NCBI GenBank assembly: GCA_023053545.1
Contig: JAKZAN010000006.1
Coordinates: forward strand, 11,353,412 to 11,417,411
Direction of reading: 5' to 3'
Length of the DNA: 64,000 nucleotides
DNA from: Lepidurus packardi
Lineage: Eukaryota > Arthropoda > Branchiopoda > Notostraca > Triopsidae
The notes under the pieces are model-generated. The model did no database searches. It saw only the letters and a program-made list of their open reading frames with translations, and had not been told where the DNA came from. Made by a program: the position numbers and the translations under genes. Of this stretch, positions 4,742 through 29,311 are shown in pieces. Numbering within the stretch: position 1 is the stretch's first letter; every line of letters starts with the position of its first letter.

Positions 4742-4802
4742 ATACTATTTAATTTAATGCTATTTAAACATTATTCGTACAATGCATGCTAGCTTTAATA
4801 TG

Positions 4803-5201: not shown

Positions 5202-5254
5202 TTTTTAAGAAATTCACAAGTCCGGATTCTAACCTCTTTTCTTGTTTTCTTGTA

Positions 5255-9034: not shown

Positions 9035-9035
9035 G

Positions 9036-9101
9036 TTGTTGTGTGGGGTGTTGTCACACCCCACTTGTTGTGTGGGGTGTTGTCACACCCCACACAACAA
9101 G
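9036..9101. repeat. Two adjacent hairpins at the left end of the viral array
   Basis: 9064-9079 pairs perfectly with 9086-9101 (16-bp stem, loop TTGTCA). Immediately left, 9043-9050 pairs with 9057-9064 around the same loop. The right arm at 9086-9101 is the normal 3' UTR of the viral unit, while the left arm is its inverted copy. Beyond it the usual 3' end and poly-A of the other units are missing. It looks like a fold-back event at the end of the array. Confidence 0.85.
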
Positions 9102-9132
9102 TTATCGGACTCAAACTCACTTTAGCAAAACA

Positions 9133-10935
9133 TTAAAGTGCAGATTTTCCCGGGAGTCTCGGACGAGGGGACAATAGGGGAACAAGGCCGAGCTCAGGTG
9201 AGTTTTCTGTTTCACGTGTCCTTATATCGTGTTGAGATGGGGTTGAAACGGATACCATCACAGATGATGCAAGTGATCCAGTTCCCCTTTGTGTCATCCA
9301 ATTTCGAGCCATTATCATGGTGAGTACAATTAACCAGATAATGATTATTGTCAAACAAACAATTGTTGAAATGGATGGCCCCCCAATTGCCCCAAAAATT
9401 CCTGGATTGCCAACGGAAAAAGAGGTTCCATCCGCCGTAATCTCCCCCTCGTTCAACAAAGAGTCATGTAGGATCCGTTTCCTATCATTGACCCAGGTGG
9501 TGCTTTCTAACCGTAGCAGTACATCGGTTGTGTATAATAAACCCCTTTTTGAGGTGTCTAAGGTATGATAAGCTTGTAAATCAGATGGTAAAGGGTTGAT
9601 TTGGCCAAGAGGACGGATTGAAGGGGACATCTCGTACCATTGATTACCAGAGGAAAAACCTGGTAACGCTGGATCCTCACAGGATATCTGAACTGCAGAG
9701 TTGTGAATGGTTCGGTGTACAGGATGCATGAATTGTTCCACTTTGTTGTCATCTCGAACAATAGGGAGTAGTGTATAACATAATGTTTTTGGGGCCAATT
9801 TAACTGCAACACTACTGCATTTGCTAAGTTTAACGAGTTCCCCAGCCACAGTGGCTGACCACCCTGGTTGTCCAGTCAATCGGTATCCTAACATCTCAGG
9901 ATCTAATGCTGATGAATAAAGCATCTCCCGTCGAAGAGATGTTTCTAAGCGACACATATTGATCAAGCTGATTTGCCGAGAATTGAGAATCGCAGCGAGA
10001 GATGAGGAAACAGAAAACTCTGTTGCAGCCTGTATAAGCGACGACCAGGAGCCAACAACCTCAAGTGATTCCTGAGGCAATGGATAGGAACTCGCGTTGG
10101 TAATGAACAGAAAAGGGTCCGCGGTGGCCCACAATGACACGTGACGACGATCAATCACTCCACTTAAACGGACCCCCGTTGATAATTTGTGGATAATCAA
10201 GATTTCCCCACCTGTGGGAAATTTAAGAATAACTCCAGGACCACTGTACAGCTTGATAAGGTTGCATTCTGAGGTGTTTATGGCAGATATCCCATATGCC
10301 GCTCCACCTAGGTCCGTCATTGCGAATGGTCCATCCGACTCTAATTGTTCTCCAGATAATAGAGCATAGTTGGCAATTCCTCCCAGGGGGGACAAATTAA
10401 TCACTACTCTTACCGGAGCTAGACTGGCCTCCACCCATTCTACAACAATATGAACTGATTTTCTAACACAAAAGCCTTCCTGGTCGATTTCACCCTTGGT
10501 GCGAGTGCGCGTAGTTGAGCCCATCTTAGTTTCGAAGGCTGTCGTATGATACAAGCCTCGGTTTTGCGTTTTCCAATTGAGGCAGTCACGACCTCTAACA
10601 GGAATGGTAGTTGGAACTACCGAATGTTGCTTGTTTGCTGTTGGAGTTAGGTCACGGTCCCAGGTGCAGAAATAAGACTCATGGGTGACTCGCAATTGAC
10701 ACATCCACCCATCCACGACAACACTTCGTTTGGCTTGTAAGAGGGTTATCTCGACTGGGTGTTCCATTGCCGTTTCTTGTGCCTGGTGAAGGCATTGGTC
10801 CTCGGTCATTAGAGTAAAAGGAGATGTGTGCTCCAATTTCAAGCAATCAAATGCTTGAAGGGACTCCGCCAAGGAGGCTAATGTCAAAAACCCCAGTACT
10901 ATGATGATCATGTTGGTTTTGGATAGCGAGAACAT
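9133..10935 (-). CDS. Jingchuvirus-like glycoprotein ORF, copy 1
   Basis: A 600-aa open frame from ATG with the layout of a class-type viral membrane glycoprotein: a hydrophobic signal peptide at about residues 8-25, a cysteine-rich ectodomain with possible N-glycosylation sites (NLSP, NTSE, NASS), a transmembrane helix at about 518-541 (STIVCLTIIIIWLIVLTMIM) and a tail of about 58 residues. The N-terminal pattern FDCL...C...VEITLLQAK...C...C is what I know from chuvirus (Jingchuvirales) glycoproteins; a search would be needed to confirm it. In the virus it would act in cell attachment and fusion. The ATG follows a gene-start-like motif by a few bases. This copy reads Arg at the second residue of DRRHVSLW, where the other copies read Cys. 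Confidence 0.78.
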   Translation of the reverse strand: MFSLSKTNMIIIVLGFLTLASLAESLQAFDCLKLEHTSPFTLMTEDQCLHQAQETAMEHPVEITLLQAKRSVVVDGWMCQLRVTHESYFCTWDRDLTPTANKQHSVVPTTIPVRGRDCLNWKTQNRGLYHTTAFETKMGSTTRTRTKGEIDQEGFCVRKSVHIVVEWVEASLAPVRVVINLSPLGGIANYALLSGEQLESDGPFAMTDLGGAAYGISAINTSECNLIKLYSGPGVILKFPTGGEILIIHKLSTGVRLSGVIDRRHVSLWATADPFLFITNASSYPLPQESLEVVGSWSSLIQAATEFSVSSSLAAILNSRQISLINMCRLETSLRREMLYSSALDPEMLGYRLTGQPGWSATVAGELVKLSKCSSVAVKLAPKTLCYTLLPIVRDDNKVEQFMHPVHRTIHNSAVQISCEDPALPGFSSGNQWYEMSPSIRPLGQINPLPSDLQAYHTLDTSKRGLLYTTDVLLRLESTTWVNDRKRILHDSLLNEGEITADGTSFSVGNPGIFGAIGGPSISTIVCLTIIIIWLIVLTMIMARNWMTQRGTGSLASSVMVSVSTPSQHDIRTRETENSPELGLVPLLSPRPRLPGKSAL

Positions 10936-10940
10936 TGTGA

Positions 10941-10968
10941 AATGTTATCTTATGGTTTTTCTAAATCC
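10941..10968 (-). promoter_or_regulatory. Viral-type gene junction (gene-end plus gene-start motif)
   Basis: On the minus strand the upstream ORF's 3' UTR ends GGATTTAGAAAAACC (10954-10968) and two bases later TAAGATAACATT (10941-10952) starts the glycoprotein leader. The first motif matches the site where every later unit acquires its poly-A (CATTTAG followed by A). The second matches the extreme 5' end of the outermost copy (AAGATAACGTT). This is the organisation of mononegavirus and jingchuvirus intergenic junctions. Equivalent junctions lie at 13628-13655, 16312-16339, 18996-19023 and 21683-21710. Confidence 0.72.
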
Positions 10969-10981
10969 ACCGCCAGGCAAT

Positions 10982-11697
10982 TCATAGGACAACCATTGTT
11001 GGGATCCGACCACGAGTAGTAGTTTGGACTCTGGAAACTTGCGGCTCTGGTTGCGGGCCATGGGGAGTGAAGCCACTCACTGAAGACGATGCATGTGTGG
11101 AACCTCTACTAGAAATTGATGGGGCAGCAGCAGGGGGATAAGGCGACCCGACCGTCATAGCTGCTTTGGTTGTTTGACTTATAGCTGCAGTTAGAGCTTT
11201 TGCACTATGGGCGAAAGAGGTTGAAAAATCTCGGATTGTGGTCTCCAATGTATTCAGAGCCAGGGTCGACCTAGTTGAATAAACAGTAGTCTCACCAATT
11301 ACAGCCCTGTGGATAGTGTCTAAGCCGGAATGAAGTTGTTTCATGTTTAAGTTCAATTGGTCCAACTTAGTGGCAATCCCGGATAATGGTGGTTGAAAAC
11401 TGGCCAATAACTTTAAGGAGTCATGAAACTCTTGGTGATCTTGTTCAATTGTTCCGAGCATGAGTGCTTGAAGATGGTATTGAGCTTCAACAATCATTGT
11501 GGCACGTTGATGAGCAGGAACAGTTGATGGGATCCCTCGAAGGAACACGGAAAACAGGTAGTTGGGTGCAGGTCCAGTTAGGCGAGCAAAATTATCAGTC
11601 ATCCATATTCGACGAAGCGCATGAAGGTAGTCTTCGTCAATTGCTAAATGTTGCTCAATTTTTGTGAACACTTCAGCTGGAATATGGTAGGTTCCAT
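10982..11697 (-). pseudogene. N/P-like ORF of the viral unit, 5'-truncated, copy 1
   Basis: The open frame runs from the unit boundary to a TGA 47 bp before the glycoprotein ATG. It has no initiating ATG at its 5' end; the first in-frame Met is about 23 residues into the conserved part (MTDNFARL). The middle is a long amphipathic stretch (near IATKLDQLNLNMKQLHSGLD) likely to form coiled coil, followed by a Ser/Pro/Gln-rich tail. The missing N-terminal part survives only in the outermost copy. Its position before a glycoprotein and its coiled coil suit a phosphoprotein-like role, but a nucleoprotein is not excluded. Copy-specific residues are Asn in LALNTLETT and Glu in QPEPQV. Confidence 0.6.
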
Positions 11698-11699
11698 AT

Positions 11700-11701
<2 letters not shown>
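11680..11701. repeat. Eight-bp-stem hairpin at the unit junction
   Basis: GAATATGG and CCATATTC flank a 6-nt loop directly beside the T tract (poly-A on the minus strand). The outermost copy has only the inner 14-16 bases of this motif and then continues into the rest of the ORF. The extra four bases (11698-11701) therefore look like a fold-back addition at the 5' end of the truncated unit. It is repeated at the same place in every junction. Confidence 0.75.
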
Positions 11702-11734
<33 letters not shown>

Positions 11735-11744
11735 CTAAATGAGT
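11702..11744 (-). terminator. Gene-end motif and poly-A tract of the viral unit
   Basis: On the minus strand CTCATTTAG (from 11743) is followed by 33 A (11734-11702). The other junctions have 30 (14418-14389), 30 (17102-17073), 33 (19789-19757) and 24 (22467-22444) A; the last has one substitution beside the tract. No AATAAA is seen upstream. ATTTAGAAAA is shared with the internal gene junction, so polyadenylation at a viral slippery gene-end site is the simplest reading. Confidence 0.75.
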
Positions 11745-11819
11745 CATCTATTGCAGAAGTTACTATCTGTCACACCCCACACAACAAGTTATCGGACTCA
11801 AACTCACTTTAGCAAAACA

Positions 11820-13622
11820 TTAAAGTGCAGATTTTCCCGGGAGTCTCGGACGAGGGGACAATAGGGGAACAAGGCCGAGCTCAGGTGAGTTTTCTGTTTC
11901 ACGTGTCCTTATATCGTGTTGAGATGGGGTTGAAACGGATACCATCACAGATGATGCAAGTGATCCAGTTCCCCTTTGTGTCATCCAATTTCGAGCCATT
12001 ATCATGGTGAGTACAATTAACCAGATAATGATTATTGTCAAACAAACAATTGTTGAAATGGATGGCCCCCCAATTGCCCCAAAAATTCCTGGATTGCCAA
12101 CGGAAAAAGAGGTTCCATCCGCCGTAATCTCCCCCTCGTTCAACAAAGAGTCATGTAGGATCCGTTTCCTATCATTGACCCAGGTGGTGCTTTCTAACCG
12201 TAGCAGTACATCGGTTGTGTATAATAAACCCCTTTTTGAGGTGTCTAAGGTATGATAAGCTTGTAAATCAGATGGTAAAGGGTTGATTTGGCCAAGAGGA
12301 CGGATTGAAGGGGACATCTCGTACCATTGATTACCAGAGGAAAAACCTGGTAACGCTGGATCCTCACAGGATATCTGAACTGCAGAGTTGTGAATGGTTC
12401 GGTGTACAGGATGCATGAATTGTTCCACTTTGTTGTCATCTCGAACAATAGGGAGTAGTGTATAACATAATGTTTTTGGGGCCAATTTAACTGCAACACT
12501 ACTGCATTTGCTAAGTTTAACGAGTTCCCCAGCCACAGTGGCTGACCACCCTGGTTGTCCAGTCAATCGGTATCCTAACATCTCAGGATCTAATGCTGAT
12601 GAATAAAGCATCTCCCGTCGAAGAGATGTTTCTAAGCGACACATATTGATCAAGCTGATTTGCCGAGAATTGAGAATCGCAGCGAGAGATGAGGAAACAG
12701 AAAACTCTGTTGCAGCCTGTATAAGCGACGACCAGGAGCCAACAACCTCAAGTGATTCCTGAGGCAATGGATAGGAACTCGCGTTGGTAATGAACAGAAA
12801 AGGGTCCGCGGTGGCCCACAATGACACGTGACAACGATCAATCACTCCACTTAAACGGACCCCCGTTGATAATTTGTGGATAATCAAGATTTCCCCACCT
12901 GTGGGAAATTTAAGAATAACTCCAGGACCACTGTACAGCTTGATAAGGTTGCATTCTGAGGTGTTTATGGCAGATATCCCATATGCCGCTCCACCTAGGT
13001 CCGTCATTGCGAATGGTCCATCCGACTCTAATTGTTCTCCAGATAATAGAGCATAGTTGGCAATTCCTCCCAGGGGGGACAAATTAATCACTACTCTTAC
13101 CGGAGCTAGACTGGCCTCCACCCATTCTACAACAATATGAACTGATTTTCTAACACAAAAGCCTTCCTGGTCGATTTCACCCTTGGTGCGAGTGCGCGTA
13201 GTTGAGCCCATCTTAGTTTCGAAGGCTGTCGTATGATACAAGCCTCGGTTTTGCGTTTTCCAATTGAGGCAGTCACGACCTCTAACAGGAATGGTAGTTG
13301 GAACTACCGAATGTTGCTTGTTTGCTGTTGGAGTTAGGTCACGGTCCCAGGTGCAGAAATAAGACTCATGGGTGACTCGCAATTGACACATCCACCCATC
13401 CACGACAACACTTCGTTTGGCTTGTAAGAGGGTTATCTCGACTGGGTGTTCCATTGCCGTTTCTTGTGCCTGGTGAAGGCATTGGTCCTCGGTCATTAGA
13501 GTAAAAGGAGATGTGTGCTCCAATTTCAAGCAATCAAATGCTTGAAGGGACTCCGCCAAGGAGGCTAATGTCAAAAACCCCAGTACTATGATGATCATGT
13601 TGGTTTTGGATAGCGAGAACAT
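11820..13622 (-). CDS. Jingchuvirus-like glycoprotein ORF, copy 2
   Basis: Intact 600-aa frame, identical to copy 1 as translated except Cys for Arg in the DRCHVSLW segment. The 3' UTR is complete (85 bp from stop to the A tract). Its 5' neighbour is the truncated N/P-like ORF of the same unit. Confidence 0.78.
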   Translation of the reverse strand: MFSLSKTNMIIIVLGFLTLASLAESLQAFDCLKLEHTSPFTLMTEDQCLHQAQETAMEHPVEITLLQAKRSVVVDGWMCQLRVTHESYFCTWDRDLTPTANKQHSVVPTTIPVRGRDCLNWKTQNRGLYHTTAFETKMGSTTRTRTKGEIDQEGFCVRKSVHIVVEWVEASLAPVRVVINLSPLGGIANYALLSGEQLESDGPFAMTDLGGAAYGISAINTSECNLIKLYSGPGVILKFPTGGEILIIHKLSTGVRLSGVIDRCHVSLWATADPFLFITNASSYPLPQESLEVVGSWSSLIQAATEFSVSSSLAAILNSRQISLINMCRLETSLRREMLYSSALDPEMLGYRLTGQPGWSATVAGELVKLSKCSSVAVKLAPKTLCYTLLPIVRDDNKVEQFMHPVHRTIHNSAVQISCEDPALPGFSSGNQWYEMSPSIRPLGQINPLPSDLQAYHTLDTSKRGLLYTTDVLLRLESTTWVNDRKRILHDSLLNEGEITADGTSFSVGNPGIFGAIGGPSISTIVCLTIIIIWLIVLTMIMARNWMTQRGTGSLASSVMVSVSTPSQHDIRTRETENSPELGLVPLLSPRPRLPGKSAL

Positions 13623-13668
13623 TGTGAAATGTTATCTTATGGTTTTTCTAAATCCACCGCCAGGCAAT

Positions 13669-14384
13669 TCATAGGACAACCATTGTTGGGATCCGACCAC
13701 GAGTAGTAGTTTGGACTCTGGAAACTTGCGGCTGTGGTTGCGGGCCATGGGGAGTGAAGCCACTCACTGAAGACGATGCATGTGTGGAACCTCTACTAGA
13801 AATTGATGGGGCAGCAGCAGGGGGATAAGGCGACCCGACCGTCATAGCTGCTTTGGTTGTTTGACTTATAGCTGCAGTTAGAGCTTTTGCACTATGGGCG
13901 AAAGAGGTTGAAAAATCTCGGATTGTGGTCTCCAATGTCTTCAGAGCCAGGGTCGACCTAGTTGAATAAACAGTAGTCTCACCAATTACAGCCCTGTGGA
14001 TAGTGTCTAAGCCGGAATGAAGTTGTTTCATGTTTAAGTTCAATTGGTCCAACTTAGTGGCAATCCCGGATAATGGTGGTTGAAAACTGGCCAATAACTT
14101 TAAGGAGTCATGAAACTCTTGGTGATCTTGTTCAATTGTTCCGAGCATGAGTGCTTGAAGATGGTATTGAGCTTCAACAATCATTGTGGCACGTTGATGA
14201 GCAGGAACAGTTGATGGGATCCCTCGAAGGAACACGGAAAACAGGTAGTTGGGTGCAGGTCCAGTTAGGCGAGCAAAATTATCAGTCATCCATATTCGAC
14301 GAAGCGCATGAAGGTAGTCTTCGTCAATTGCTAAATGTTGCTCAATTTTTGTGAACACTTCAGCTGGAATATGGTAGGTTCCAT
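13669..14384 (-). pseudogene. N/P-like ORF, 5'-truncated, copy 2
   Basis: Same truncation point as copy 1. It reads Lys in LALKTLETT and Gln in QPQPQV where copy 1 has Asn and Glu; copies 3-5 agree with this copy, so copy 1 carries the derived residues. No start codon is retained. Confidence 0.6.
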
Positions 14385-14386
14385 AT

Positions 14387-14418
<32 letters not shown>

Positions 14419-14503
14419 CTAAATGAGTCATCTATTGCAGAAGTTACTATCTGTCACACCCCACACAACAAGTTATCGGACTCAAACTCACTTTAGCAAA
14501 ACA

Positions 14504-16306
14504 TTAAAGTGCAGATTTTCCCGGGAGTCTCGGACGAGGGGACAATAGGGGAACAAGGCCGAGCTCAGGTGAGTTTTCTGTTTCACGTGTCCTTATATCG
14601 TGTTGAGATGGGGTTGAAACGGATACCATCACAGATGATGCAAGTGATCCAGTTCCCCTTTGTGTCATCCAATTTCGAGCCATTATCATGGTGAGTACAA
14701 TTAACCAGATAATGATTATTGTCAAACAAACAATTGTTGAAATGGATGGCCCCCCAATTGCCCCAAAAATTCCTGGATTGCCAACGGAAAAAGAGGTTCC
14801 ATCCGCCGTAATCTCCCCCTCGTTCAACAAAGAGTCATGTAGGATCCGTTTCCTATCATTGACCCAGGTGGTGCTTTCTAACCGTAGCAGTACATCGGTT
14901 GTGTATAATAAACCCCTTTTTGAGGTGTCTAAGGTATGATAAGCTTGTAAATCAGATGGTAAAGGGTTGATTTGGCCAAGAGGACGGATTGAAGGGGACA
15001 TCTCGTACCATTGATTACCAGAGGAAAAACCTGGTAACGCTGGATCCTCACAGGATATCTGAACTGCAGAGTTGTGAATGGTTCGGTGTACAGGATGCAT
15101 GAATTGTTCCACTTTGTTGTCATCTCGAACAATAGGGAGTAGTGTATAACATAATGTTTTTGGGGCCAATTTAACTGCAACACTACTGCATTTGCTAAGT
15201 TTAACGAGTTCCCCAGCCACAGTGGCTGACCACCCTGGTTGTCCAGTCAATCGGTATCCTAACATCTCAGGATCTAATGCTGATGAATAAAGCATCTCCC
15301 GTCGAAGAGATGTTTCTAAGCGACACATATTGATCAAGCTGATTTGCCGAGAATTGAGAATCGCAGCGAGAGATGAGGAAACAGAAAACTCTGTTGCAGC
15401 CTGTATAAGCGACGACCAGGAGCCAACAACCTCAAGTGATTCCTGAGGCAATGGATAGGAACTCGCGTTGGTAATGAACAGAAAAGGGTCCGCGGTGGCC
15501 CACAATGACACGTGACAACGATCAATCACTCCACTTAAACGGACCCCCGTTGATAATTTGTGGATAATCAAGATTTCCCCACCTGTGGGAAATTTAAGAA
15601 TAACTCCAGGACCACTGTACAGCTTGATAAGGTTGCATTCTGAGGTGTTTATGGCAGATATCCCATATGCCGCTCCACCTAGGTCCGTCATTGCGAATGG
15701 TCCATCCGACTCTAATTGTTCTCCAGATAATAGAGCATAGTTGGCAATTCCTCCCAGGGGGGACAAATTAATCACTACTCTTACCGGAGCTAGACTGGCC
15801 TCCACCCATTCTACAACAATATGAACTGATTTTCTAACACAAAAGCCTTCCTGGTCGATTTCACCCTTGGTGCGAGTGCGCGTAGTTGAGCCCATCTTAG
15901 TTTCGAAGGCTGTCGTATGATACAAGCCTCGGTTTTGCGTTTTCCAATTGAGGCAGTCACGACCTCTAACAGGAATGGTAGTTGGAACTACCGAATGTTG
16001 CTTGTTTGCTGTTGGAGTTAGGTCACGGTCCCAGGTGCAGAAATAAGACTCATGGGTGACTCGCAATTGACACATCCACCCATCCACGACAACACTTCGT
16101 TTGGCTTGTAAGAGGGTTATCTCGACTGGGTGTTCCATTGCCGTTTCTTGTGCCTGGTGAAGGCATTGGTCCTCGGTCATTAGAGTAAAAGGAGATGTGT
16201 GCTCCAATTTCAAGCAATCAAATGCTTGAAGGGACTCCGCCAAGGAGGCTAATGTCAAAAACCCCAGTACTATGATGATCATGTTGGTTTTGGATAGCGA
16301 GAACAT
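14504..16306 (-). CDS. Jingchuvirus-like glycoprotein ORF, copy 3
   Basis: Intact 600-aa frame, identical in translation to copy 2. Signal peptide, transmembrane helix and all ectodomain cysteines are kept. Confidence 0.78.
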   Translation of the reverse strand: MFSLSKTNMIIIVLGFLTLASLAESLQAFDCLKLEHTSPFTLMTEDQCLHQAQETAMEHPVEITLLQAKRSVVVDGWMCQLRVTHESYFCTWDRDLTPTANKQHSVVPTTIPVRGRDCLNWKTQNRGLYHTTAFETKMGSTTRTRTKGEIDQEGFCVRKSVHIVVEWVEASLAPVRVVINLSPLGGIANYALLSGEQLESDGPFAMTDLGGAAYGISAINTSECNLIKLYSGPGVILKFPTGGEILIIHKLSTGVRLSGVIDRCHVSLWATADPFLFITNASSYPLPQESLEVVGSWSSLIQAATEFSVSSSLAAILNSRQISLINMCRLETSLRREMLYSSALDPEMLGYRLTGQPGWSATVAGELVKLSKCSSVAVKLAPKTLCYTLLPIVRDDNKVEQFMHPVHRTIHNSAVQISCEDPALPGFSSGNQWYEMSPSIRPLGQINPLPSDLQAYHTLDTSKRGLLYTTDVLLRLESTTWVNDRKRILHDSLLNEGEITADGTSFSVGNPGIFGAIGGPSISTIVCLTIIIIWLIVLTMIMARNWMTQRGTGSLASSVMVSVSTPSQHDIRTRETENSPELGLVPLLSPRPRLPGKSAL

Positions 16307-16352
16307 TGTGAAATGTTATCTTATGGTTTTTCTAAATCCACCGCCAGGCAAT

Positions 16353-17068
16353 TCATAGGACAACCATTGTTGGGATCCGACCACGAGTAGTAGTTTGGAC
16401 TCTGGAAACTTGCGGCTGTGGTTGCGGGCCATGGGGAGTGAAGCCACTCACTGAAGACGATGCATGTGTGGAACCTCTACTAGAAATTGATGGGGCAGCA
16501 GCAGGGGGATAAGGCGACCCGACCGTCATAGCTGCTTTGGTTGTTTGACTTATAGCTGCAGTTAGAGCTTTTGCACTATGGGCGAAAGAGGTTGAAAAAT
16601 CTCGGATTGTGGTCTCCAATGTCTTCAGAGCCAGGGTCGACCTAGTTGAATAAACAGTAGTCTCACCAATTACAGCCCTGTGGATAGTGTCTAAGCCGGA
16701 ATGAAGTTGTTTCATGTTTAAGTTCAATTGGTCCAACTTAGTGGCAATCCCGGATAATGGTGGTTGAAAACTGGCCAATAACTTTAAGGAGTCATGAAAC
16801 TCTTGGTGATCTTGTTCAATTGTTCCGAGCATGAGTGCTTGAAGATGGTATTGAGCTTCAACAATCATTGTGGCACGTTGATGAGCAGGAACAGTTGATG
16901 GGATCCCTCGAAGGAACACGGAAAACAGGTAGTTGGGTGCAGGTCCAGTTAGGCGAGCAAAATTATCAGTCATCCATATTCGACGAAGCGCATGAAGGTA
17001 GTCTTCGTCAATTGCTAAATGTTGCTCAATTTTTGTGAACACTTCAGCTGGAATATGGTAGGTTCCAT
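16353..17068 (-). pseudogene. N/P-like ORF, 5'-truncated, copy 3
   Basis: Identical in translation to copy 2; lacks the N-terminal half and a start codon. It is separated from the glycoprotein ORF by the same 46-bp junction. Confidence 0.6.
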
Positions 17069-17070
17069 AT

Positions 17071-17102
<32 letters not shown>

Positions 17103-17187
17103 CTAAATGAGTCATCTATTGCAGAAGTTACTATCTGTCACACCCCACACAACAAGTTATCGGACTCAAACTCACTTTAGCAAAACA

Positions 17188-18990: not shown

Positions 18991-19036
18991 TGTGAAATGT
19001 TATCTTATGGTTTTTCTAAATCCACCGCCAGGCAAT

Positions 19037-19752
19037 TCATAGGACAACCATTGTTGGGATCCGACCACGAGTAGTAGTTTGGACTCTGGAAACTTGCGGC
19101 TGTGGTTGCGGGCCATGGGGAGTGAAGCCACTCACTGAAGACGATGCATGTGTGGAACCTCTACTAGAAATTGATGGGGCAGCAGCAGGGGGATAAGGCG
19201 ACCCGACCGTCATAGCTGCTTTGGTTGTTTGACTTATAGCTGCAGTTAGAGCTTTTGCACTATGGGCGAAAGAGGTTGAAAAATCTCGGATTGTGGTCTC
19301 CAATGTCTTCAGAGCCAGGGTCGACCTAGTTGAATAAACAGTAGTCTCACCAATTACAGCCCTGTGGATAGTGTCTAAGCCGGAATGAAGTTGTTTCATG
19401 TTTAAGTTCAATTGGTCCAACTTAGTGGCAATCCCGGATAATGGTGGTTGAAAACTGGCCAATAACTTTAAGGAGTCATGAAACTCTTGGTGATCTTGTT
19501 CAATTGTTCCGAGCATGAGTGCTTGAAGATGGTATTGAGCTTCAACAATCATTGTGGCACGTTGATGAGCAGGAACAGTTGATGGGATCCCTCGAAGGAA
19601 CACGGAAAACAGGTAGTTGGGTGCAGGTCCAGTTAGGCGAGCAAAATTATCAGTCATCCATATTCGACGAAGCGCATGAAGGTAGTCTTCGTCAATTGCT
19701 AAATGTTGCTCAATTTTTGTGAACACTTCAGCTGGAATATGGTAGGTTCCAT
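19037..19752 (-). pseudogene. N/P-like ORF, 5'-truncated, copy 4
   Basis: Identical in translation to copies 2 and 3, with the same loss of the N-terminal half. Confidence 0.6.
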
Positions 19753-19754
19753 AT

Positions 19755-19789
<35 letters not shown>

Positions 19790-19874
19790 CTAAATGAGTC
19801 ATCTATTGCAGAAGTTACTATCTGTCACACCCCACACAACAAGTTATCGGACTCAAACTCACTTTAGCAAAACA

Positions 19875-21677
19875 TTAAAGTGCAGATTTTCCCGGGAGTC
19901 TCGGACGAGGGGACAATAGGGGAACAAGGCCGAGCTCAGGTGAGTTTTCTGTTTCACGTGTCCTTATATCGTGTTGAGATGGGGTTGAAACGGATACCAT
20001 CACAGATGATGCAAGTGATCCAGTTCCCCTTTGTGTCATCCAATTTCGAGCCATTATCATGGTGAGTACAATTAACCAGATAATGATTATTGTCAAACAA
20101 ACAATTGTTGAAATGGATGGCCCCCCAATTGCCCCAAAAATTCCTGGATTGCCAACGGAAAAAGAGGTTCCATCCGCCGTAATCTCCCCCTCGTTCAACA
20201 AAGAGTCATGTAGGATCCGTTTCCTATCATTGACCCAGGTGGTGCTTTCTAACCGTAGCAGTACATCGGTTGTGTATAATAAACCCCTTTTTGAGGTGTC
20301 TAAGGTATGATAAGCTTGTAAATCAGATGGTAAAGGGTTGATTTGGCCAAGAGGACGGATTGAAGGGGACATCTCGTACCATTGATTACCAGAGGAAAAA
20401 CCTGGTAACGCTGGATCCTCACAGGATATCTGAACTGCAGAGTTGTGAATGGTTCGGTGTACAGGATGCATGAATTGTTCCACTTTGTTGTCATCTCGAA
20501 CAATAGGGAGTAGTGTATAACATAATGTTTTTGGGGCCAATTTAACTGCAACACTACTGCATTTGCTAAGTTTAACGAGTTCCCCAGCCACAGTGGCTGA
20601 CCACCCTGGTTGTCCAGTCAATCGGTATCCTAACATCTCAGGATCTAATGCTGATGAATAAAGCATCTCCCGTCGAAGAGATGTTTCTAAGCGACACATA
20701 TTGATCAAGCTGATTTGCCGAGAATTGAGAATCGCAGCGAGAGATGAGGAAACAGAAAACTCTGTTGCAGCCTGTATAAGCGACGACCAGGAGCCAACAA
20801 CCTCAAGTGATTCCTGAGGCAATGGATAGGAACTCGCGTTGGTAATGAACAGAAAAGGGTCCGCGGTGGCCCACAATGACACGTGACAACGATCAATCAC
20901 TCCACTTAAACGGACCCCCGTTGATAATTTGTGGATAATCAAGATTTCCCCACCTGTGGGAAATTTAAGAATAACTCCAGGACCACTGTACAGCTTGATA
21001 AGGTTGCATTCTGAGGTGTTTATGGCAGATATCCCATATGCCGCTCCACCTAGGTCCGTCATTGCGAATGGTCCATCCGACTCTAATTGTTCTCCAGATA
21101 ATAGAGCATAGTTGGCAATTCCTCCCAGGGGGGACAAATTAATCACTACTCTTACCGGAGCTAGACTGGCCTCCACCCATTCTACAACAATATGAACTGA
21201 TTTTCTAACACAAAAGCCTTCCTGGTCGATTTCACCCTTGGTGCGAGTGCGCGTAGTTGAGCCCATCTTAGTTTCGAAGGCTGTCGTATGATACAAGCCT
21301 CGGTTTTGCGTTTTCCAATTGAGGCAGTCACGACCTCTAACAGGAATGGTAGTTGGAACTACCGAATGTTGCTTGTTTGCTGTTGGAGTTAGGTCACGGT
21401 CCCAGGTGCAGAAATAAGACTCATGGGTGACTCGCAATTGACACATCCACCCATCCACGACAACACTTCGTTTGGCTTGTAAGAGGGTTATCTCGACTGG
21501 GTGTTCCATTGCCGTTTCTTGTGCCTGGTGAAGGCATTGGTCCTCGGTCATTAGAGTAAAAGGAGATGTGTGCTCCAATTTCAAGCAATCAAATGCTTGA
21601 AGGGACTCCGCCAAGGAGGCTAATGTCAAAAACCCCAGTACTATGATGAGTATGTTGGTTTTGGATAGCGAGAACAT
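19875..21677 (-). CDS. Jingchuvirus-like glycoprotein ORF, copy 5
   Basis: Intact 600-aa frame. It differs from the others in the signal peptide (TNILIIV instead of TNMIIIV), caused by two neighbouring base changes near 21650. The rest of the translation matches copies 2-4. Confidence 0.78.
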   Translation of the reverse strand: MFSLSKTNILIIVLGFLTLASLAESLQAFDCLKLEHTSPFTLMTEDQCLHQAQETAMEHPVEITLLQAKRSVVVDGWMCQLRVTHESYFCTWDRDLTPTANKQHSVVPTTIPVRGRDCLNWKTQNRGLYHTTAFETKMGSTTRTRTKGEIDQEGFCVRKSVHIVVEWVEASLAPVRVVINLSPLGGIANYALLSGEQLESDGPFAMTDLGGAAYGISAINTSECNLIKLYSGPGVILKFPTGGEILIIHKLSTGVRLSGVIDRCHVSLWATADPFLFITNASSYPLPQESLEVVGSWSSLIQAATEFSVSSSLAAILNSRQISLINMCRLETSLRREMLYSSALDPEMLGYRLTGQPGWSATVAGELVKLSKCSSVAVKLAPKTLCYTLLPIVRDDNKVEQFMHPVHRTIHNSAVQISCEDPALPGFSSGNQWYEMSPSIRPLGQINPLPSDLQAYHTLDTSKRGLLYTTDVLLRLESTTWVNDRKRILHDSLLNEGEITADGTSFSVGNPGIFGAIGGPSISTIVCLTIIIIWLIVLTMIMARNWMTQRGTGSLASSVMVSVSTPSQHDIRTRETENSPELGLVPLLSPRPRLPGKSAL

Positions 21678-21723
21678 TGTGAAATGTTATCTTATGGTTT
21701 TTCTAAATCCACCGCCAGGCAAT

Positions 21724-22439
21724 TCATAGGACAACCATTGTTGGGATCCGACCACGAGTAGTAGTTTGGACTCTGGAAACTTGCGGCTGTGGTTGCGGGC
21801 CATGGGGAGTGAAGCCACTCACTGAAGACGATGCATGTGTGGAACCTCTACTAGAAATTGATGGGGCAGCAGCAGGGGGATAAGGCGACCCGACCGTCAT
21901 AGCTGCTTTGGTTGTTTGACTTATAGCTGCAGTTAGAGCTTTTGCACTATGGGCGAAAGAGGTTGAAAAATCTCGGATTGTGGTCTCCAATGTCTTCAGA
22001 GCCAGGGTCGACCTAGTTGAATAAACAGTAGTCTCACCAATTACAGCCCTATGGATAGTGTCTAAGCCGGAATGAAGTTGTTTCATGTTTAAGTTCAATT
22101 GGTCCAACTTAGTGGCAATCCCGGATAATGGTGGTTGAAAACTGGCCAATAACTTTAAGGAGTCATGAAACTCTTGGTGATCTTGTTCAATTGTTCCGAG
22201 CACGAGTGCTTGAAGATGGTATTGAGCTTCAACAATCATTGTGGCACGTTGATGAGCAGGAACAGTTGATGGGATCCCTCGAAGGAACACGGAAAACAGG
22301 TAGTTGGGTGCAGGTCCAGTTAGGCGAGCAAAATTATCAGTCATCCATATTCGACGAAGCGCATGAAGGTAGTCTTCGTCAATTGCTAAATGTTGCTCAA
22401 TTTTTGTGAACACTTCAGCTGGAATATGGTAGGTTCCAT
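21724..22439 (-). pseudogene. N/P-like ORF, 5'-truncated, copy 5
   Basis: As copies 2-4 except for one Met-to-Val change (LQALVLGT). The A tract beyond it is the shortest (24). Confidence 0.6.
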
Positions 22440-22553
22440 ATTCTTTTTTTTTTTTTTTTTTTTTTTTCCTAAATGAGTCATCTATTGCAGAAGTTACTAT
22501 CTGTCACACCCCACACAACAAGTTATCGGACTCAAACTCACTTTAGCAAAACA

Positions 22554-23278
22554 TTAAAGTGCAGATTTTCCCGGGAGTCTCGGACGAGGGGACAATAGGG
22601 GAACAAGGCCGAGCTCAGGTGAGTTTTCTGTTTCACGTGTCCTTATATCGTGTTGAGATGGGGTTGAAACGGATACCATCACAGATGATGCAAGTGATCC
22701 AGTTCCCCTTTGTGTCATCCAATTTCGAGCCATTATCATGGTGAGTACAATTAACCAGATAATGATTATTGTCAAACAAACAATTGTTGAAATGGATGGC
22801 CCCCCAATTGCCCCAAAAATTCCTGGATTGCCAACGGAAAAAGAGGTTCCATCCGCCGTAATCTCCCCCTCGTTCAACAAAGAGTCATGTAGGATCCGTT
22901 TCCTATCATTGACCCAGGTGGTGCTTTCTAACCGTAGCAGTACATCGGTTGTGTATAATAAACCCCTTTTTGAGGTGTCTAAGGTATGATAAGCTTGTAA
23001 ATCAGATGGTAAAGGGTTGATTTGGCCAAGAGGACGGATTGAAGGGGACATCTCGTACCATTGATTACCAGAGGAAAAACCTGGTAACGCTGGATCCTCA
23101 CAGGATATCTGAACTGCAGAGTTGTGAATGGTTCGGTGTACAGGATGCATGAATTGTTCCACTTTGTTGTCATCTCGAACAATAGGGAGTAGTGTATAAC
23201 ATAATGTTTTTGGGGCCAATTTAACTGCAACACTACTGCATTTGCTAAGTTTAACGAGTTCCCCAGCCACAGTGGCTG
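22554..23278 (-). pseudogene. Glycoprotein copy 6, 3' part
   Basis: This holds the C-terminal part of a sixth glycoprotein, about residues 360-600, identical to the others, including the transmembrane helix. It is cut off upstream by the hAT-1 insertion. The rest continues at 27656. The 8-bp AGTGGCTG on both sides of the hAT is the target duplication. Confidence 0.9.
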
Positions 23279-26200
23279 TAGGGATCCCGAAAGCCGGCTT
23301 TGGCAAAGCCAGCTTTGAAGCCGGCTTTGACCTTGACCGTCTCCGGCTTTAAAGCCGGCCTGAGGCAATGAAAGCCAAAAAGCCAAAAGCCGAAAGCCGC
23401 GAAGCTGGCTTTAAAACCGGCTTCCAGTCGTTGCTCGGAGGAAGCCACACCCCTTGTGAACTGTCCCTTCCCACCTCCATTGTAAACAAATACACATGAT
23501 TTGGATTGTTTTTATTTTCTGCTACAAAATTTAGTCTACTGTGCGTGAACCTCACATGCGTTGCTGTTATTAATACAAATGCGCTTAACGCAATGCGCTA
23601 TGCACATGCGTATGTGAACTCTTTTTTATGTAGTTATAGCTTGTTAAGAGAATAAGAAAATTCCGTAATAAAAGAATTTACAATAACATATCACTGGTTA
23701 CTACCAACTCAGTAAACTTACCTATGCCAGTTAATTTTTCGTGCTACTAACACCAACTGGGCTAGAGATTTAAATGAAAAGCGCCTTCAACTTAAGCGAC
23801 TCAAACGAAAAGAGATATGCTCGACACCAAAAAGTTTTATTAACTTACAAGAGTGCTTAAGTAGTACAAAAAAGTGGTAGCTGCTAAATTTGTGGATGAT
23901 GAAGCACAACATAACTGTAAATTTTCGCATGGTTAAAGGTTAGAAAAATATTTCCTAATGAACTCGAAATTCTTTTATTTTTGGCAAAAATTTGGCAGGG
24001 AAAACACTTGGCCTTTGGCATTGCATTAACGATATTCTTTACTTTCCATAACGAGATCATTTGGACCTGGAAATTTCATAATTTTCGAAATTAACACTTG
24101 AGATTCATTGAATACATTCGAATACAACCAAACAATGCATTACAGTGAGCAAAATTAAGGTTACACTGGTAATGGATCTGGGATATAATCAGGTAGTGTG
24201 TAATAAAATGCGTAAAATTAATCCTTTGGTAAGCAATTAGTTACAACATGACAAGGTGAGGTTTAGCGCCTTGATTAGGCGTTCATGTGATTAGAGTGCG
24301 AGACATAAGAAAGCTTCTTAAGATTTGGGCCAACAAATTAAAGCCCGTGAAGCAGTAGCTATGGATTTATGTTTTAAGGCCACTTTAAGCCCTGTTTAAG
24401 GCCACGGTATACCAAAACGTGCTTACTTTCCCATTACATGAAAATTGGCGTCAGTGATTATTTAAGAATGGAACAGAATTCTGATTTTAAGCATATAGGA
24501 AAAGTTAAAAAATCAAAATAATTAAAAAAATTTACTAACTATTTTTTAAAAAATCGGCAACATATAAGACACTCGCGTTGTGCTTGAAAATTTTACTGGC
24601 AAAACACACTTCTAGCTAAAAAAACCGTTTTAGCGTGGTCACTGACGCCATTCCCTATGTAATTGGATAGGAAGCGCGTTTTGTATATCGAGGCCTTAAA
24701 CCCTATTGGTAATAGTAGCAATCTTTAGAAAATTACTTCAAACATATGTGCTGAGATCTTCGTCTTCAAACATTTTAATCCACTGGTGCAGCAAAACCAA
24801 AACTCGAACCGATTCAGGTAGTAAGCGATTGCGTATCTTGGTCTGCACTAAGCCGGCCTGACTAAAGAGTCGCTCGACACTTGTTGAACTAGCTGGTACG
24901 CATAAAATATCACAGACAGCTTTGTAAAGCACTGGGTAAGTAAACTTCAAACTGTCTTCCCACACATCGATAGGCCGCACAGCTTTTCCTCCAGCTTGCG
25001 GTGCCATGTGGAAATACGACGCTTCACGGTCATCTATCTGAAAGTCCGGAAGGTTGGGTCGCGTCGAAGCTCCATCGATATCTAAATAATCGAAGTCATC
25101 TTTTTCTTCTTCCATCCTGTTCAAGAATGTCGCTGCTCGAGTGGCTCGTGAGATAGAGTATGATCCGTCTCGCTCTGCAGAAGGCATTTCGTCGCGGTAT
25201 TTCTTGATGTATTTCTCGATCCTAAAGTTAAAATTATAGATTAACTTTCTTGAACAGTTACTGTATGGTATTAATACGTACGTTGGAATGATTTTCGAAG
25301 TTACATTGGCGTAGTTTTTGTTCAAGAAGTAGGTCAAATTCAGCCTCGGATCAAGTACAAGTGCAAAAGTTGCTAGGTCACTCTGTTTTTCTAAATAGCG
25401 AGTGAGAATTGGTTTCGCAACTCGGGCGCACAAAGCAACAAATTCCGCAGCTGTCAAATCAGAAAGGGTTTTCCCCACAAACAAGCTTGCAGGGGGGCGG
25501 CTTGTACGTCCCGATCGCGTAACTGTAATACTCTGGATAAATTCCATTTCGATTGCAAAATCTACGTCGTCTTGAGTGATCGGCCTTTCTTCGTCTTCTT
25601 CCCTTTTCTTCGTTTTCTTCTTCGTTTTCTTTTCCGAAGAGTTCGATTTCCCTTCAGTTGATCCAGTTGGTGTAATAGCATCGACCTCCCTTAGATTCTC
25701 CGCGTTGTCATCGTTCTCGTTCCATTCCAAGTCCTTAACTGCAGCATCAACCAACTCTTCCCGATTTGTGGATATGTGTGACTGAACGTAGTCACATACA
25801 GTGTAGGCAACGTTGCTGAAATCGGTGTCACTGATGTCTTCGCTTAACTTACTGCATAAATCGATGAGATTATTATAAGCCGGAATAACCATCTGCAAAG
25901 TTTCTCCGTCACTTCCAACCATTTTACTAATCTTGGCTACTGATTTCAGAAGCGGCTGCAATGATTCTAGGACAATAAAATACTGTAAGGCAGAACGTAG
26001 CAGAGAAATAAATACTGTCTTACCAACAATCATCCATTCAGAATCCGTTATTGGCACGATTTTGTCTCGCCTTATTGAATCATTCTCGTTCCTAAATAAC
26101 AACAGTAAGTCCCGCTTGAGCAGAAGAAGACGGTCTATCATCATAGATGTGCTATTCCAGCGTGTCCTCACGTCCAGTATAATCGTACCAGGACGCCTTA

Positions 26201-27655
26201 AAGAATTGGCCTCTTTCAGGCTCATGGCCCCTTCTTCAACCAACCGATGGATTTCTTGATCATCATTCATTTTAACTATAGCTAACAGTGCCTTTCTTAA
26301 ACGAGGGGAGTAGCGGATATGACGAACTGTTTTACGCAGCCGATGTAAAGTTCGATTTGTCAGTGACATGATGGCCTGGCAGGCCAGATTTACACTGTGC
26401 TGGAAGCATTGCACACATTCTATCTGGTGAGGACTACCGGGGAACAATCTTTGGATATCTGCGTTCAATTCTCGAACTGCTGCTGCGTTTACGCTAGCGT
26501 TGTCGCACGTCATTGCCATTACCTGGTCCAGGGGCAAGTCATAGTCACTCAGAACGCCTTTAATAACGCGAGCGAGGTCAAGTGCAGCATGCTCGGTGCA
26601 TTCTACCATATCCAGAACAACTTGTTTTTTCAAAAGGACGGATCTACCACCTGGAGCTGGAGCGCGAATGAAAAACGAACCAAGGACACCGAAGTGTCCT
26701 GTGAAGCTTTTGCTCGTCCAGCCATCTACCATTACTGTGACACGGCCCACACGATTTGCAAGGAACGCCTTGACTTTTCCCTGTAACTAGATCCAAAATA
26801 GAGTTACGGAAATGTATAACACACATAATGGAAAATACATACTTCGCAAAGCTCATCAATGAGTGTATCTTTCATTGCTGATGAGTGGTATAAGTCCTTT
26901 TCGGCTTGGGGGAACAAGAATGCTACCGCGTCCCGAAAATACTTGGAGTCTGACAACGAAATAGGCAATCGATCTGCTGCTATCAGTCTAGCAACCTTTC
27001 GGTTCCAAGTTTCCTTTGAGTAGGGGAGTCGTAGAGTAAGCTTGCCTTTCTCCATTACCAATGCTGATTGCGCTGCAGCTGGGTGTGCCTTTTTCGCCTT
27101 CAACAAGCTTTGCACCGCTCTCCATTTTGATTGCATAACCAATTGATTATTCGGGTGACACTTAACTAAGTGACGAGCAGCCGACGAAACTGATTTCGTG
27201 CAGTCATACGTTCTTGAAGAAGTGCTGCTCGAATTGCGGCAAAGTATGCACTCCCACGTTGATTTTTCATCATCCGTGGGAAGAAAGGCATAAAATTCAG
27301 ACTGTTGGATGTCAGGTGCTATAATGAACTATTATTAACACAGATAATTTACATTCGATTATATTTACCTCGCTTTTCAACTACTAGTACTAATTCAGTG
27401 ACTTCGACCTCCATTTTTTATCTCTTTAGCCCTTTTGCTGAAAGCATGGTAGTAAAAAAATACAAAGCATTAATAGCGACGCCTACATTGAGCTTTGGCC
27501 AATCACAGAACATCACGTGACTGCCTAGTTCAAGACAAAGCCAAAGCCGAAGCCAAAAAGTCTGGCTTCAAAAGCCAAAAGCCAAGAAGCCAAAGCCGAA
27601 GCCGAAGCCAGATTTTTTGGGCTTTTGGCTTCAAAGCCGGGCTTTCGGGAACCCT
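23279..27655 (-). mobile_element. hAT transposon hAT-1, complete
   Basis: The 4,377-bp element has inverted ends TAGGGATCCCGAAAGCC (left) and TAGGGTTCCCGAAAGCC (reverse complement of the right end) and a perfect 8-bp target duplication AGTGGCTG (23271-23278 and 27656-27663). Both ends carry many subterminal repeats of the AAAGCC / GGCTTT type (23285-23440, 27535-27640), where transposase would bind. It encodes one spliced transposase on the minus strand. About 1.25 kb at the left (23450-24737) contain no gene that I recognise. Confidence 0.95.
24738..27414 (-). CDS. hAT transposase with BED zinc finger (4 exons)
   Basis: Exons 27414-27369, 27318-26843, 26780-25282 and 25221-24738 join in frame through GT-AG introns to about 834 residues. 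Exon 2 carries a BED finger (WECILC ... RHLVKCH) near residues 37-70. Exon 3 has the catalytic-domain start MVDGWTS, then TCDNASVNAAA and the conserved CFQHSVNLACQ (CxxH) segment, and a Lys-rich insert (KKTKKKTKKRE). Exon 4 ends with the hAT dimerisation motif SSTSVERLFSQAGL. The enzyme cuts and joins the hAT ends, producing 8-bp target duplications as seen here. No stop interrupts the exons, so it may be active or recently so. Confidence 0.9.
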
Positions 27656-28632
27656 AAGTGGCTGACCACCCTGGTTGTCCAGTCAATCGGTATCCTAACA
27701 TCTCAGGATCTAATGCTGATGAATAAAGCATCTCCCGTCGAAGAGATGTTTCTAAGCGACACATATTGATCAAGCTGATTTGCCGAGAATTGAGAATCGC
27801 AGCGAGAGATGAGGAAACAGAAAACTCTGTTGCAGCCTGTATAAGCGACGACCAGGAGCCAACAACCTCAAGTGATTCCTGAGGCAATGGATAGGAACTC
27901 GCGTTGGTAATGAACAGAAAAGGGTCCGCGGTGGCCCACAATGACACGTGACAACGATCAATCACTCCACTTAAACGGACCCCCGTTGATAATTTGTGGA
28001 TAATCAAGATTTCCCCACCTGTGGGAAATTTAAGAATAACTCCAGGACCACTGTACAGCTTGATAAGGTTGCATTCTGAGGTGTTTATGGCAGATATCCC
28101 ATATGCCGCTCCACCTAGGTCCGTCATTGCGAATGGTCCATCCGACTCTAATTGTTCTCCAGATAATAGAGCATAGTTGGCAATTCCTCCCAGGGGGGAC
28201 AAATTAATCACTACTCTTACCGGAGCTAGACTGGCCTCCACCCATTCTACAACAATATGAACTGATTTTCTAACACAAAAGCCTTCCTGGTCGATTTCAC
28301 CCTTGGTGCGAGTGCGCGTAGTTGAGCCCATCTTAGTTTCGAAGGCTGTCGTATGATACAAGCCTCGGTTTTGCGTTTTCCAATTGAGGCAGTCACGACC
28401 TCTAACAGGAATGGTAGTTGGAACTACCGAATGTTGCTTGTTTGCTGTTGGAGTTAGGTCACGGTCCCAGGTGCAGAAATAAGACTCATGGGTGACTCGC
28501 AATTGACACATCCACCCATCCACGACAACACTTCGTTTGGCTTGTAAGAGGGTTATCTCGACTGGGTGTTCCATTGCCGTTTCTTGTGCCTGGTGAAGGC
28601 ATTGGTCCTCGGTCATTAGAGTAAAAGGAGAT
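27656..28632 (-). pseudogene. Glycoprotein copy 6, 5' part with start deleted
   Basis: Glycoprotein sequence from about residue 37 to about residue 363 is present and identical to the other copies. Its signal peptide, the gene junction and the whole C-terminal half of the N/P-like ORF are missing: the sequence jumps at 28631-28632 straight to the N-terminal part of the N/P-like ORF. The deletion ends share the two bases AT. The resulting open frame starts in another frame and is not expected to make the glycoprotein. Confidence 0.88.
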
Positions 28633-29289
28633 ATGGTAGGTTCCATTAGGTTGGACTCCGAGTTTAAAATGGGTTTGTGCCGAGATGGGTGCAAACCGTG
28701 TTTTGGTGGACTGTCTCACAGCATCTGAATATGTGGATGATCTTTTCTCGACGTTTCTTGTCCGTTGTTGTCCCCTTCCTTGATGGTTAGATCCTCTTCC
28801 ACGACCTCGTTGTGGCCGTTTTTGGCGAGGTGATCTAGGAGCCAAATTCTCAAATGATGTCACTAGATCGGTCACAGATGGCGGGCGTGGGCTGACTTGT
28901 TCATCAACACGATACCAGGGATCCTCCACTGACCTTTCCTGGGGAACCAGGGTATCATCATAGGTAGTCATGTGAGTTGTTACCGGATAAAGCGAGTTCA
29001 CCTGTTGCAGTTGTTCAGCCTGGTACTGCGCTTGTGATGATTGTGGTATAAAAACAGGGGCTGTTGCTAATAATGATGACCTGGGGGCCACTCTAGTAAC
29101 GACACCTGTCTCGGCATATTGACCCAGCCTTGAGCCTCCAGGGCCAGATAAAGATGATCGAATAGCTGCTGGAAGTCGACGTCGACTCGTGCGTTGAGTG
29201 TGCTCTTCATAATCTGCTGCCAATAGTGATTGAAGATCGGGTTCTGCAGAGATTTCATAACTTGGTAATTCCCAACTCGTAGCCATCAT
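28633..29289 (-). pseudogene. N/P-like ORF, N-terminal half (outermost copy)
   Basis: From the first of two adjacent ATGs at 29289 about 214 codons are open in the native frame before the deletion junction. The region is Ser/Pro-rich with a basic RGRGRG motif and surroundings (QRGRGRG...GRGQQRTRN) that could bind RNA. It is the only remaining copy of this half; together with the part present in the internal units the original protein would be about 450 residues. The leader before the ATG is only 22 bases and begins with the gene-start motif AAGATAAC. I cannot assign it to N or P from sequence alone. Confidence 0.65.
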
Positions 29290-29300
29290 TGCTAAATAAG

Positions 29301-29311
29301 AACGTTATCTT
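29301..29311 (-). promoter_or_regulatory. Gene-start-like motif at the 5' end of the viral insert
   Basis: Minus-strand AAGATAACGTT is the last virus-derived sequence. The next base belongs to an LTR (homologous to 30161 onward). The same motif precedes the glycoprotein ORF in every unit. A cDNA of a viral mRNA would begin here. Confidence 0.7.

Follow-up and report, generated by a model that had tools for sequence, protein, structure and literature searches.

In bat genomes, a bornavirus read-through mRNA covering N, X, and P is reported to have been inserted by LINE-1, a long interspersed nuclear element (LINE), as one complete mRNA (PMC10288550). In Bursaphelenchus xylophilus, a nodavirus-like element lies in a long terminal repeat (LTR) element of the Bel/Pao type (PMC5177903). 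For host mRNAs, LTR-mediated retroposition is described as a template switch that gives a chimeric cDNA, which is inserted by integrase (review PMC5408686, citing Tan et al., 2016). As far as the cited portions of these reports go, capture of read-through mRNAs, RNA-virus sequence in an LTR element, and LTR template switching of host mRNAs are already known. Here, we describe a tandem array of RNA-virus sequence in a 64,000-nucleotide stretch of the Lepidurus packardi genome (contig JAKZAN010000006.1, positions 11,353,412 to 11,417,411; the whole stretch is referred to as the window), together with related loci in the same genome and the gypsy/errantivirus-type LTR family joined to some of them. 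In our assessment, a viral read-through mRNA was probably captured via an element of this family, and the array then took shape through a nested insertion of the G gene and unequal exchange.

The array occupies positions 9081-29311 of the window on the minus strand. Its repeat unit, found five times at a spacing of 2,684-2,687 bp, consists of a 206-aa open reading frame (ORF; the rest of a longer ORF1), ATTTAGAAAAACCATAAGATAAC, a 600-aa ORF, and a 3' untranslated region. The 600-aa protein, referred to as G, matches the Monjiviricetes fusion glycoprotein in Pfam (PF24664; E 7.8e-31, 107.2 bits, cut-off 27), and its frame is unbroken in all five units. In the host genome (108.6 Mb, 344 contigs), 29 matches were found with G, 25 with N of a sister locus, and 11 with P. 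At 10.63 Mb on contig C1 and on contig C33, units carry N (619 aa), P (451 aa), and G in this order. P is also what ORF1 of the window encodes; residues 1-219 of the C1 P are matched by its 5' part (68%) and residues 215-451 by its part in the units (85-86%). Because G belongs to PF24664 and N, P, and G stand in order at C1, the window array is sequence of a non-segmented negative-strand RNA virus, with N, P, and G as successive genes. This bears out the negative-strand origin proposed in a preliminary description made from the letters of the window.

The same description named descent from a retrotransposon env gene as the case that would speak against a virus. Errantivirus-type elements with env do occur in the window and in the genome. 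Array copy numbers may also be mis-sized in the assembly, as two contigs, C23 and C33, measure exactly 25,000 bases each and both the C1 array and one C2 copy run into Ns. However, N, P, and G lie side by side and are accompanied by gene borders; the local errantivirus-type element has a Baculo_F env, not PF24664; and several large contigs carry related arrays with 72-77% identity. That the 600-aa ORF is an env gene, or that the arrays are an assembly artefact, is accordingly scarcely credible.

Transcription signals can be read directly in these arrays. The junction described earlier between the two ORFs is confirmed: ATTTAGAAAAACCATAAGATAAC forms the P/G border in 5/5 units. Gene ends read ATTTAGAAAAA at the window P/G and C1 N/P borders, ACTTAGAAAAA at the C1 P/G border, ATTTAG plus poly-A after the window G, and ATTCAGAA plus poly-A after N on C2 and C23, where some copies have a C ahead of the A-run. 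In all of them A follows the core, which is ATTTAG (window P/G, window G, C1 N/P), ACTTAG (C1 P/G), or ATTCAG (C2 N). Gene starts conform to AAGANAAC in five cases: AAGATAACGTT (window P), AAGATAACATT (window G and, identically, N at 10.4 Mb on C5), AAGAAAACGTC (C1 P), and AAGACAACATT (C1 G). The P/G junction is almost unchanged between the window and C1, while the sequence ahead of it is divergent. Its degenerate form, TTAGAAAAACCNTAAGANAAC, has 13 exact matches in the host genome, all in the virus arrays (5 in the window, 6 on C1, and 2 on C33); one mismatch adds a single match elsewhere, on C4. The reversed control pattern gave 0 forward matches and 1 reverse match at up to one mismatch. 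A literature search for the junction letters returned nothing relevant. The borders and their matches support readable transcription signals common to independent captures.

For AcNSRV-2 (Lispiviridae), the gene end is given as 3'-UAAAUCUUUUU(U)-5', the gene start as 3'-UUCA(G/C), and the spacer as 3'-GAG, and AcNSRV-1 and AcNSRV-2 share the gene order N-P-M-G-L (PMC8103988). Comparison with gene borders of exogenous viruses, called for in the preliminary description, thus agrees in part. With respect to what that report gives, the AcNSRV-2 gene end equals ATTTAGAAAAA and N and P likewise precede G, whereas gene start (3'-UUCUNUUG) and spacer (3'-GGWA) here differ from those of AcNSRV-1/2, and no ORF lies between P and G, the place of M in AcNSRV-2; at C1, the interval from the P stop to the G ATG is about 46 nt. 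Two leafhopper rhabdoviruses are reported to end their genes in TTAGAAAAA (PMC11360795), so the gene end is not diagnostic of Lispiviridae and does not name a family. Since, in addition, P and G have no ORF between them and L lies outside the comparison, the virus is assigned above the family level. N gave no Pfam match and no credible match among PDB sequences, and G had no credible relative among PDB sequences; P was compared with Pfam and the host genome.

The ends of the viral inserts point to the nature of the captured RNA. In the window, the viral part opens with AAGATAACGTTC at 29311 (minus strand), right after a host LTR piece ending in GTGAGTTCTT. The host side of this join is given by other LTR copies, which read GAGTTCTTTTTTCGC where the array has GAGTTCTT followed directly by AAGATAAC; the outermost copy therefore starts exactly at the gene start, as had been noted. 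N at 10.4 Mb on C5 likewise starts exactly at AAGATAAC, and the C1 N starts 6-8 nt inside the gene start, with a few letters common to LTR and virus at the join. Two 3' ends, those of a nested G in the window and of N on C2/C23, have gene end and poly-A. From these 5' and 3' ends it follows that the templates were transcripts. They are viral mRNAs of N alone, of N-P-G (C1), and of P-G (window), the last two being read-through products: the 5' end lies at a gene start and the internal borders are uncut (P/G in the five window units, N/P and P/G at C1). Of the read-through transcript proposed for the window, the start at the P gene start and the passage across the P/G border hold, while a gene end and poly-A belonging to the same insert are not supported. 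Capture of the antigenome (full-length plus-sense RNA) would likewise leave a series of genes with uncut borders, as seen at C1 and in the window, but the starts of three captures at, or within 6-8 nt of, N or P gene starts and the two polyadenylated gene ends make this source very unlikely.

The loci differ from one another, with 72-77% nucleotide identity and dN of 0.050-0.125 in seven pairwise comparisons. In six of these dS was returned as -1, as at saturation; the seventh (P) gave dS 2.44 and dN/dS 0.035. Such values fit separate captures of long-diverged viruses that had been under purifying selection, and do not demonstrate selection inside the host.

The sequence flanking the P 5' end in the window is an LTR piece with a primer-binding site (PBS), TGGTGTCAGAAGTGGGAT, complementary to tRNA-Leu-like 3' ends plus CCA. 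ARAGORN predicted no tRNA in L031-L037, perhaps as the genes look interrupted, and the tRNA-Leu match was made by sequence. The LTR family has at least 45 matches among those listed (92 candidates, 40 scored). Two full copies, L041 and L042, contain an ORF in gag position (weak Pfam match) and pol with reverse transcriptase, RNase H, and integrase; the env of L041 is Baculo_F by Pfam, and L042 has the same ORF (the Pfam scan covered L041). Their LTR pairs differ at 2/534 and 2/523 sites, and the copies are bounded by the 4-bp duplications GTCG and CAAT. Judged by its sequence, this is a young gypsy/errantivirus-type family.

Four captures are joined to LTR, PBS, or tRNA-Leu sequence: the P-G of the window, the N-P-G of C1/C33, an N on C5, and the G of another virus on C6. 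In the window, antisense P is joined to the last 64 nt of the LTR, the single LTR join left there. The C1/C33 composite reads, in the direction of the element, LTR, 18-nt PBS, antisense G-P-N, partial LTR, PBS, leader, and LTR, with the exact 18-nt PBS joined to antisense G and AAAC on both flanks; the left flank was taken from C1 and the right from C33, one array being assumed since C1 ends in Ns. The window and C1 share one rearranged mini-element (99.2% over 915 nt). At 10.4 Mb on C5, the LTR is followed by a PBS prolonged to 36 nt of tRNA-Leu and then by N from its first nucleotide; this N ends in TTCTCCACA, the inverse of the LTR start, and GATC stands on both flanks. The figure of 36 nt is the part matching L032 plus CCA, and the prolonged string was found at this join only (6/6 matches, at most one mismatch). 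On C6 (L016:3072-5300, C6:3.476 Mb), a G of 573 aa (PF24664, E 1.6e-61) lies between LTR-PBS-leader and the last 19 nt of the LTR; with about 24% identity to the window G, it comes from a clearly different virus.

Copying of the primer tRNA normally stops at 18 nt, where it meets a modified base. Joins at 18 nt and, by read-through of this stop, at 36 nt are what plus-strand strong-stop DNA would leave. We therefore interpret the joins as switches of template, with element DNA on one side and viral mRNA or its cDNA on the other, before integration took place; the order in which the strands switched can only be inferred. LTR or PBS sequence at the joins in the window, C1/C33, C5:10.4 Mb, and C6, and 4-bp duplications around two captures (AAAC at C1/C33, GATC at C5:10.4 Mb), agree with LTR-mediated retroposition. 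Alternatively, viral DNA made otherwise could have been end-joined into pre-existing LTR elements, with the LTR as target only. Endogenous viral elements are common in repeat-rich DNA, and the left end of the window array resembles break repair with templated filler. However, the joins fall at exact functional points, the 18-nt PBS end and the 36-nt tRNA-Leu copy, the latter is not found beside the PBS in the integrated copies L041 or L042, and 4-bp duplications enclose whole composites, so we regard a target-only role as unlikely.

The array and its right flank in the window consist of the following features.

29312-30228, plus strand: mini-derivative of the gypsy/errantivirus-type element, by BLAST to the LTR and full-length copies (last 64 nt of LTR 29312-29375, ATT, PBS from 29379, leader, LTR ending at about 30228)
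28631-29311, minus strand: P mRNA copy, 5' part, with exact 5' end AAGATAAC (29311) and ORF1 from 29289
28631-28646, minus strand: first copy of a 16-bp duplication, ATGGAACCTACCATAT, inside P
22444-28630, minus strand: nested G, 5'-truncated (begins at about codon 37), with a hAT element inside it and ATTTAGG plus 24 A at its end
23279-27656, minus strand: hAT element inside the nested G, with inverted ends TAGGGTTCCCG and CGGGATCCCTA, 8-bp duplication CAGCCACT, and a 664-aa ORF with hAT dimerization domain
22424-22443, minus strand: GAAT plus second copy of the 16-bp duplication
19757-22439, minus strand: unit 1 (P residues 215-451; junction 21708-21686; G ORF 21677-19875; tail 19795-19757)
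17073-19752, minus strand: unit 2 (junction 19021-18999; G ORF 18990-17188; tail 17108-17073)
14389-17068, minus strand: unit 3 (junction 16337-16315; G ORF 16306-14504; tail 14424-14389)
11702-14384, minus strand: unit 4 (junction 13653-13631; G ORF 13622-11820; tail 11740-11702)
9081-11697, minus strand: unit 5, the last (junction 10966-10944; G ORF 10935-9133; no tail)
9035-9080, no strand assigned: filler, made of adjoining viral 3' sequence in alternating inverted and direct copies

Over the first 2,600 nt, units 2, 3, and 4 are identical, whereas unit 1 has 4 differing sites and unit 5 has 3. Five of six G 3' ends have ATTTAG ahead of an A-run, four with A-runs of 33, 30, 30, and 33 nt and the fifth reading ATTTAGG plus 24 A. 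The placement of this motif before poly-A at the 3' end of the unit thus stands except in the last unit, which stops at 9081, 27 nt before the ATTTAG position of the others, and has neither gene end nor tail. After every tail (5/5) come GAAT and the same 16-nt stretch of P where, in the outermost copy, P breaks off; the identical 20 nt that open unit 1 also open the other four units, at 19756, 17072, 14388, and 11701. In the outermost copy, P stops at 28631 (ATGGAACCTACCATAT) and joins G at about codon 37. Between the nested G and the neighboring G, 2/978 and 1/805 aligned sites differ, in alignments with 32 and 2 gap columns that come mostly from unequal cut-out lengths. The two would thus be of one virus lineage or evened out by exchange.

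The 16-nt repeat is read as the target duplication of a truncated, polyadenylated G that landed in the P of an older P-G copy. Since the tails are tied to GAAT and this duplication, they are copies of the tail of the nested G, and the 3' end of the original P-G insert, lost at 9081, is not preserved. The two G copies stand in direct order and could undergo unequal exchange, of which the observed repeat unit is the product. The 24-nt A-run, the start at about codon 37, and the 16-bp duplication (within a range of 7-20 bp) are features of a LINE-type insertion; the insertion site lies between CCTA and ATGG, and no clear TT/AAAA endonuclease motif was found there.

Taken together, the array contains an exact mRNA 5' end (29311), the P/G junction, a gene end, and poly-A, as one LINE-type insertion of a complete P-G-poly(A) mRNA with simple tandem duplication would provide. 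The preliminary description accordingly credited one insert with everything from gene start to poly-A, but this sequence of signals can be assembled only across copies. The gene-start copy lacks the P/G junction, the junction units lack the P 5' end, the poly-A belongs to the second insertion with its 16-bp duplication in P, and the last unit is tailless. Moreover, the 5' flank is an LTR piece, and its duplication is not seen at the other array end. We consider a single LINE-type insert improbable here. LINE capture as the only route was also dropped, given the LTR-bounded G on C6 and the tRNA-Leu/N join at C5:10.4 Mb.

From the conserved gene ends and starts, exact mRNA 5' ends, nested 16-bp duplication, repeat unit, LTR, PBS, and tRNA joins, and 4-bp duplications, we infer that LTR-mediated capture followed by nested insertion would have proceeded in five steps. 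The viral polymerase would have missed the P gene end and produced a P-G mRNA (at C1, an N-P-G mRNA). The gypsy/errantivirus-type reverse transcriptase would have copied this mRNA to its 5' end, and a switch between mRNA and the LTR/primer-site DNA of the element would have yielded a chimeric cDNA for integrase to insert. A second G, 5'-truncated and polyadenylated, may then have been retroposed into the P of the window in the style of LINE machinery, duplicating 16 bp of the target. By unequal exchange, the two G copies would have brought the number of units to five, and a hAT insertion and a break-repair event would have altered the ends.

Several observations weigh against this account. The window keeps one LTR join while its other end is rearranged, and LTR capture there is read by analogy with C1, where the AAAC duplication itself combines ends from two contigs. 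The G array on C3 and the N array on C2/C23 have no LTR join in the stretches read, and N on C2/C23 is of the poly-A type, so LTR capture is not the sole route. In the window and at C1/C33, the viral genes are antisense to the element, unlike in the simplest switching model. No credible exogenous relative of G or of the N alignment was found in 5.8 billion proteins (about 8,000 candidates scored each) or, with G, the G alignment, and the N alignment, in IMG/VR; both sets appear to hold few chuvirus-like viruses, and PF24664 is class-wide and does not tell the orders, Jingchuvirales among them, apart. The protein search suggested earlier for G thus yielded PF24664 and no close exogenous relative.

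We put forward more tentatively, as possible but somewhat short of even probability, that one young gypsy/errantivirus-type family and its mini-derivative repeatedly capture RNA-virus mRNAs end to end. Strong-stop, PBS, or tRNA-primed DNA would switch where viral transcripts have their 5' ends, and the resulting chimeras would be mobile as LTR elements.

Other sequences were observed around the array. Next to the filler at 9080-9035 is a host tandem repeat of 223 bp, which reaches position 9034. A host segment of about 1 kb stands in direct order on both sides of the array (7395-8437 and 30225-31267, 99.5%); these repeats include part of the 223-bp tandem repeat, and the left copy represents the site without the LTR element. 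Another LTR element in the window has a 668-aa Baculo_F-type env ORF (50641-52647, E 3.2e-19) and a 1,400-aa pol-like ORF (54220-58422).

Outside the window, flavivirus-like prM/E pieces were found at C5:10.41 Mb (L018:8468-9697, 7244-8374, and 3281-3784, all on the minus strand), with repeats in L017, L019, and L027. They match Flavi_glycoprot (E 1.9e-17 and 3.7e-11) and Flavi_E_stem (E 2e-19), and a resemblance to NS1 was seen by eye only. The LTR-tRNA-N composite of C5:10.4 Mb is inserted inside the flavivirus-like E gene. At C2:0.79 Mb and on C23 (L020-L022), a 5'-truncated N with poly-A lies directly upstream of a tRNA-Ser(aga) gene, which is part of the repeat unit (4 copies in L022 by ARAGORN). 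At C3:1.957-1.986 Mb (L013-L015, L025), a G fragment (residues 73-496) is repeated in tandem with a unit of about 1.62-1.64 kb; no poly-A was found in the stretches read, and a 2.4-kb insertion whose terminal inverted repeats are imperfect interrupts one copy. In an N copy at C1:10.64 Mb (L010, about 3097-6034), an inserted element carrying a few ORFs (116-174 aa) separates residue 366 from residue 367. Further N fragments, at C5:9.65 and 9.69 Mb (L023, L024), have 74-85% identity to the C1 N. The LTR-retrotransposon joins, the tricistronic N-P-G capture, and these other loci go beyond the preliminary description.

The way in which non-retroviral RNA viruses enter animal genomes usually has to be deduced from eroded junctions. 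At several of the present loci, the junctions are legible base by base and show 18-nt and 36-nt tRNA primer copies, 5' ends of mRNAs, borders between genes, and 4-bp duplications. Host DNA also makes readable the transcription signals of a virus group that has not been sampled, and one element family is the likely captor. If captures by this family did recur, they would form a standing route that turns infections of the host into germline DNA, polycistronic read-through cargo included.

The bornavirus inserts of bats, as far as they are described in the cited report, share with the Lepidurus sequences their derivation from read-through mRNA of a mononegavirus; signals for start, internal stop/start, and final stop occur in both, as do poly-A and a target duplication, in the window spread over different copies. 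Such captures with readable signals have thus been published (PMC10288550), and the rarity claimed in the preliminary description was overstated. Unlike those inserts, P-G and N-P-G are here joined to an LTR element and the tail derives from another, later insertion, in a host and from a virus not related to those of the bat case. The Bursaphelenchus case, within the cited account, shares the enclosure of RNA-virus sequence in an LTR retrotransposon, but there the virus is positive-strand and the element degenerate, whereas here several negative-strand viruses are joined to one young family with tRNA-primer footprints. In contrast to LTR retroposition of host mRNAs, as reviewed in the source cited, the cargo is viral and polycistronic, and the switches lie at PBS/tRNA and mRNA 5' ends. 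No report of a viral capture with tRNA-primer footprints was found in the open-licence literature searched. Relative to these systems, what is new is the combination, with the tricistronic N-P-G capture, footprints of the tRNA primer, recurrent involvement of one element family, and the intact tandem arrays.

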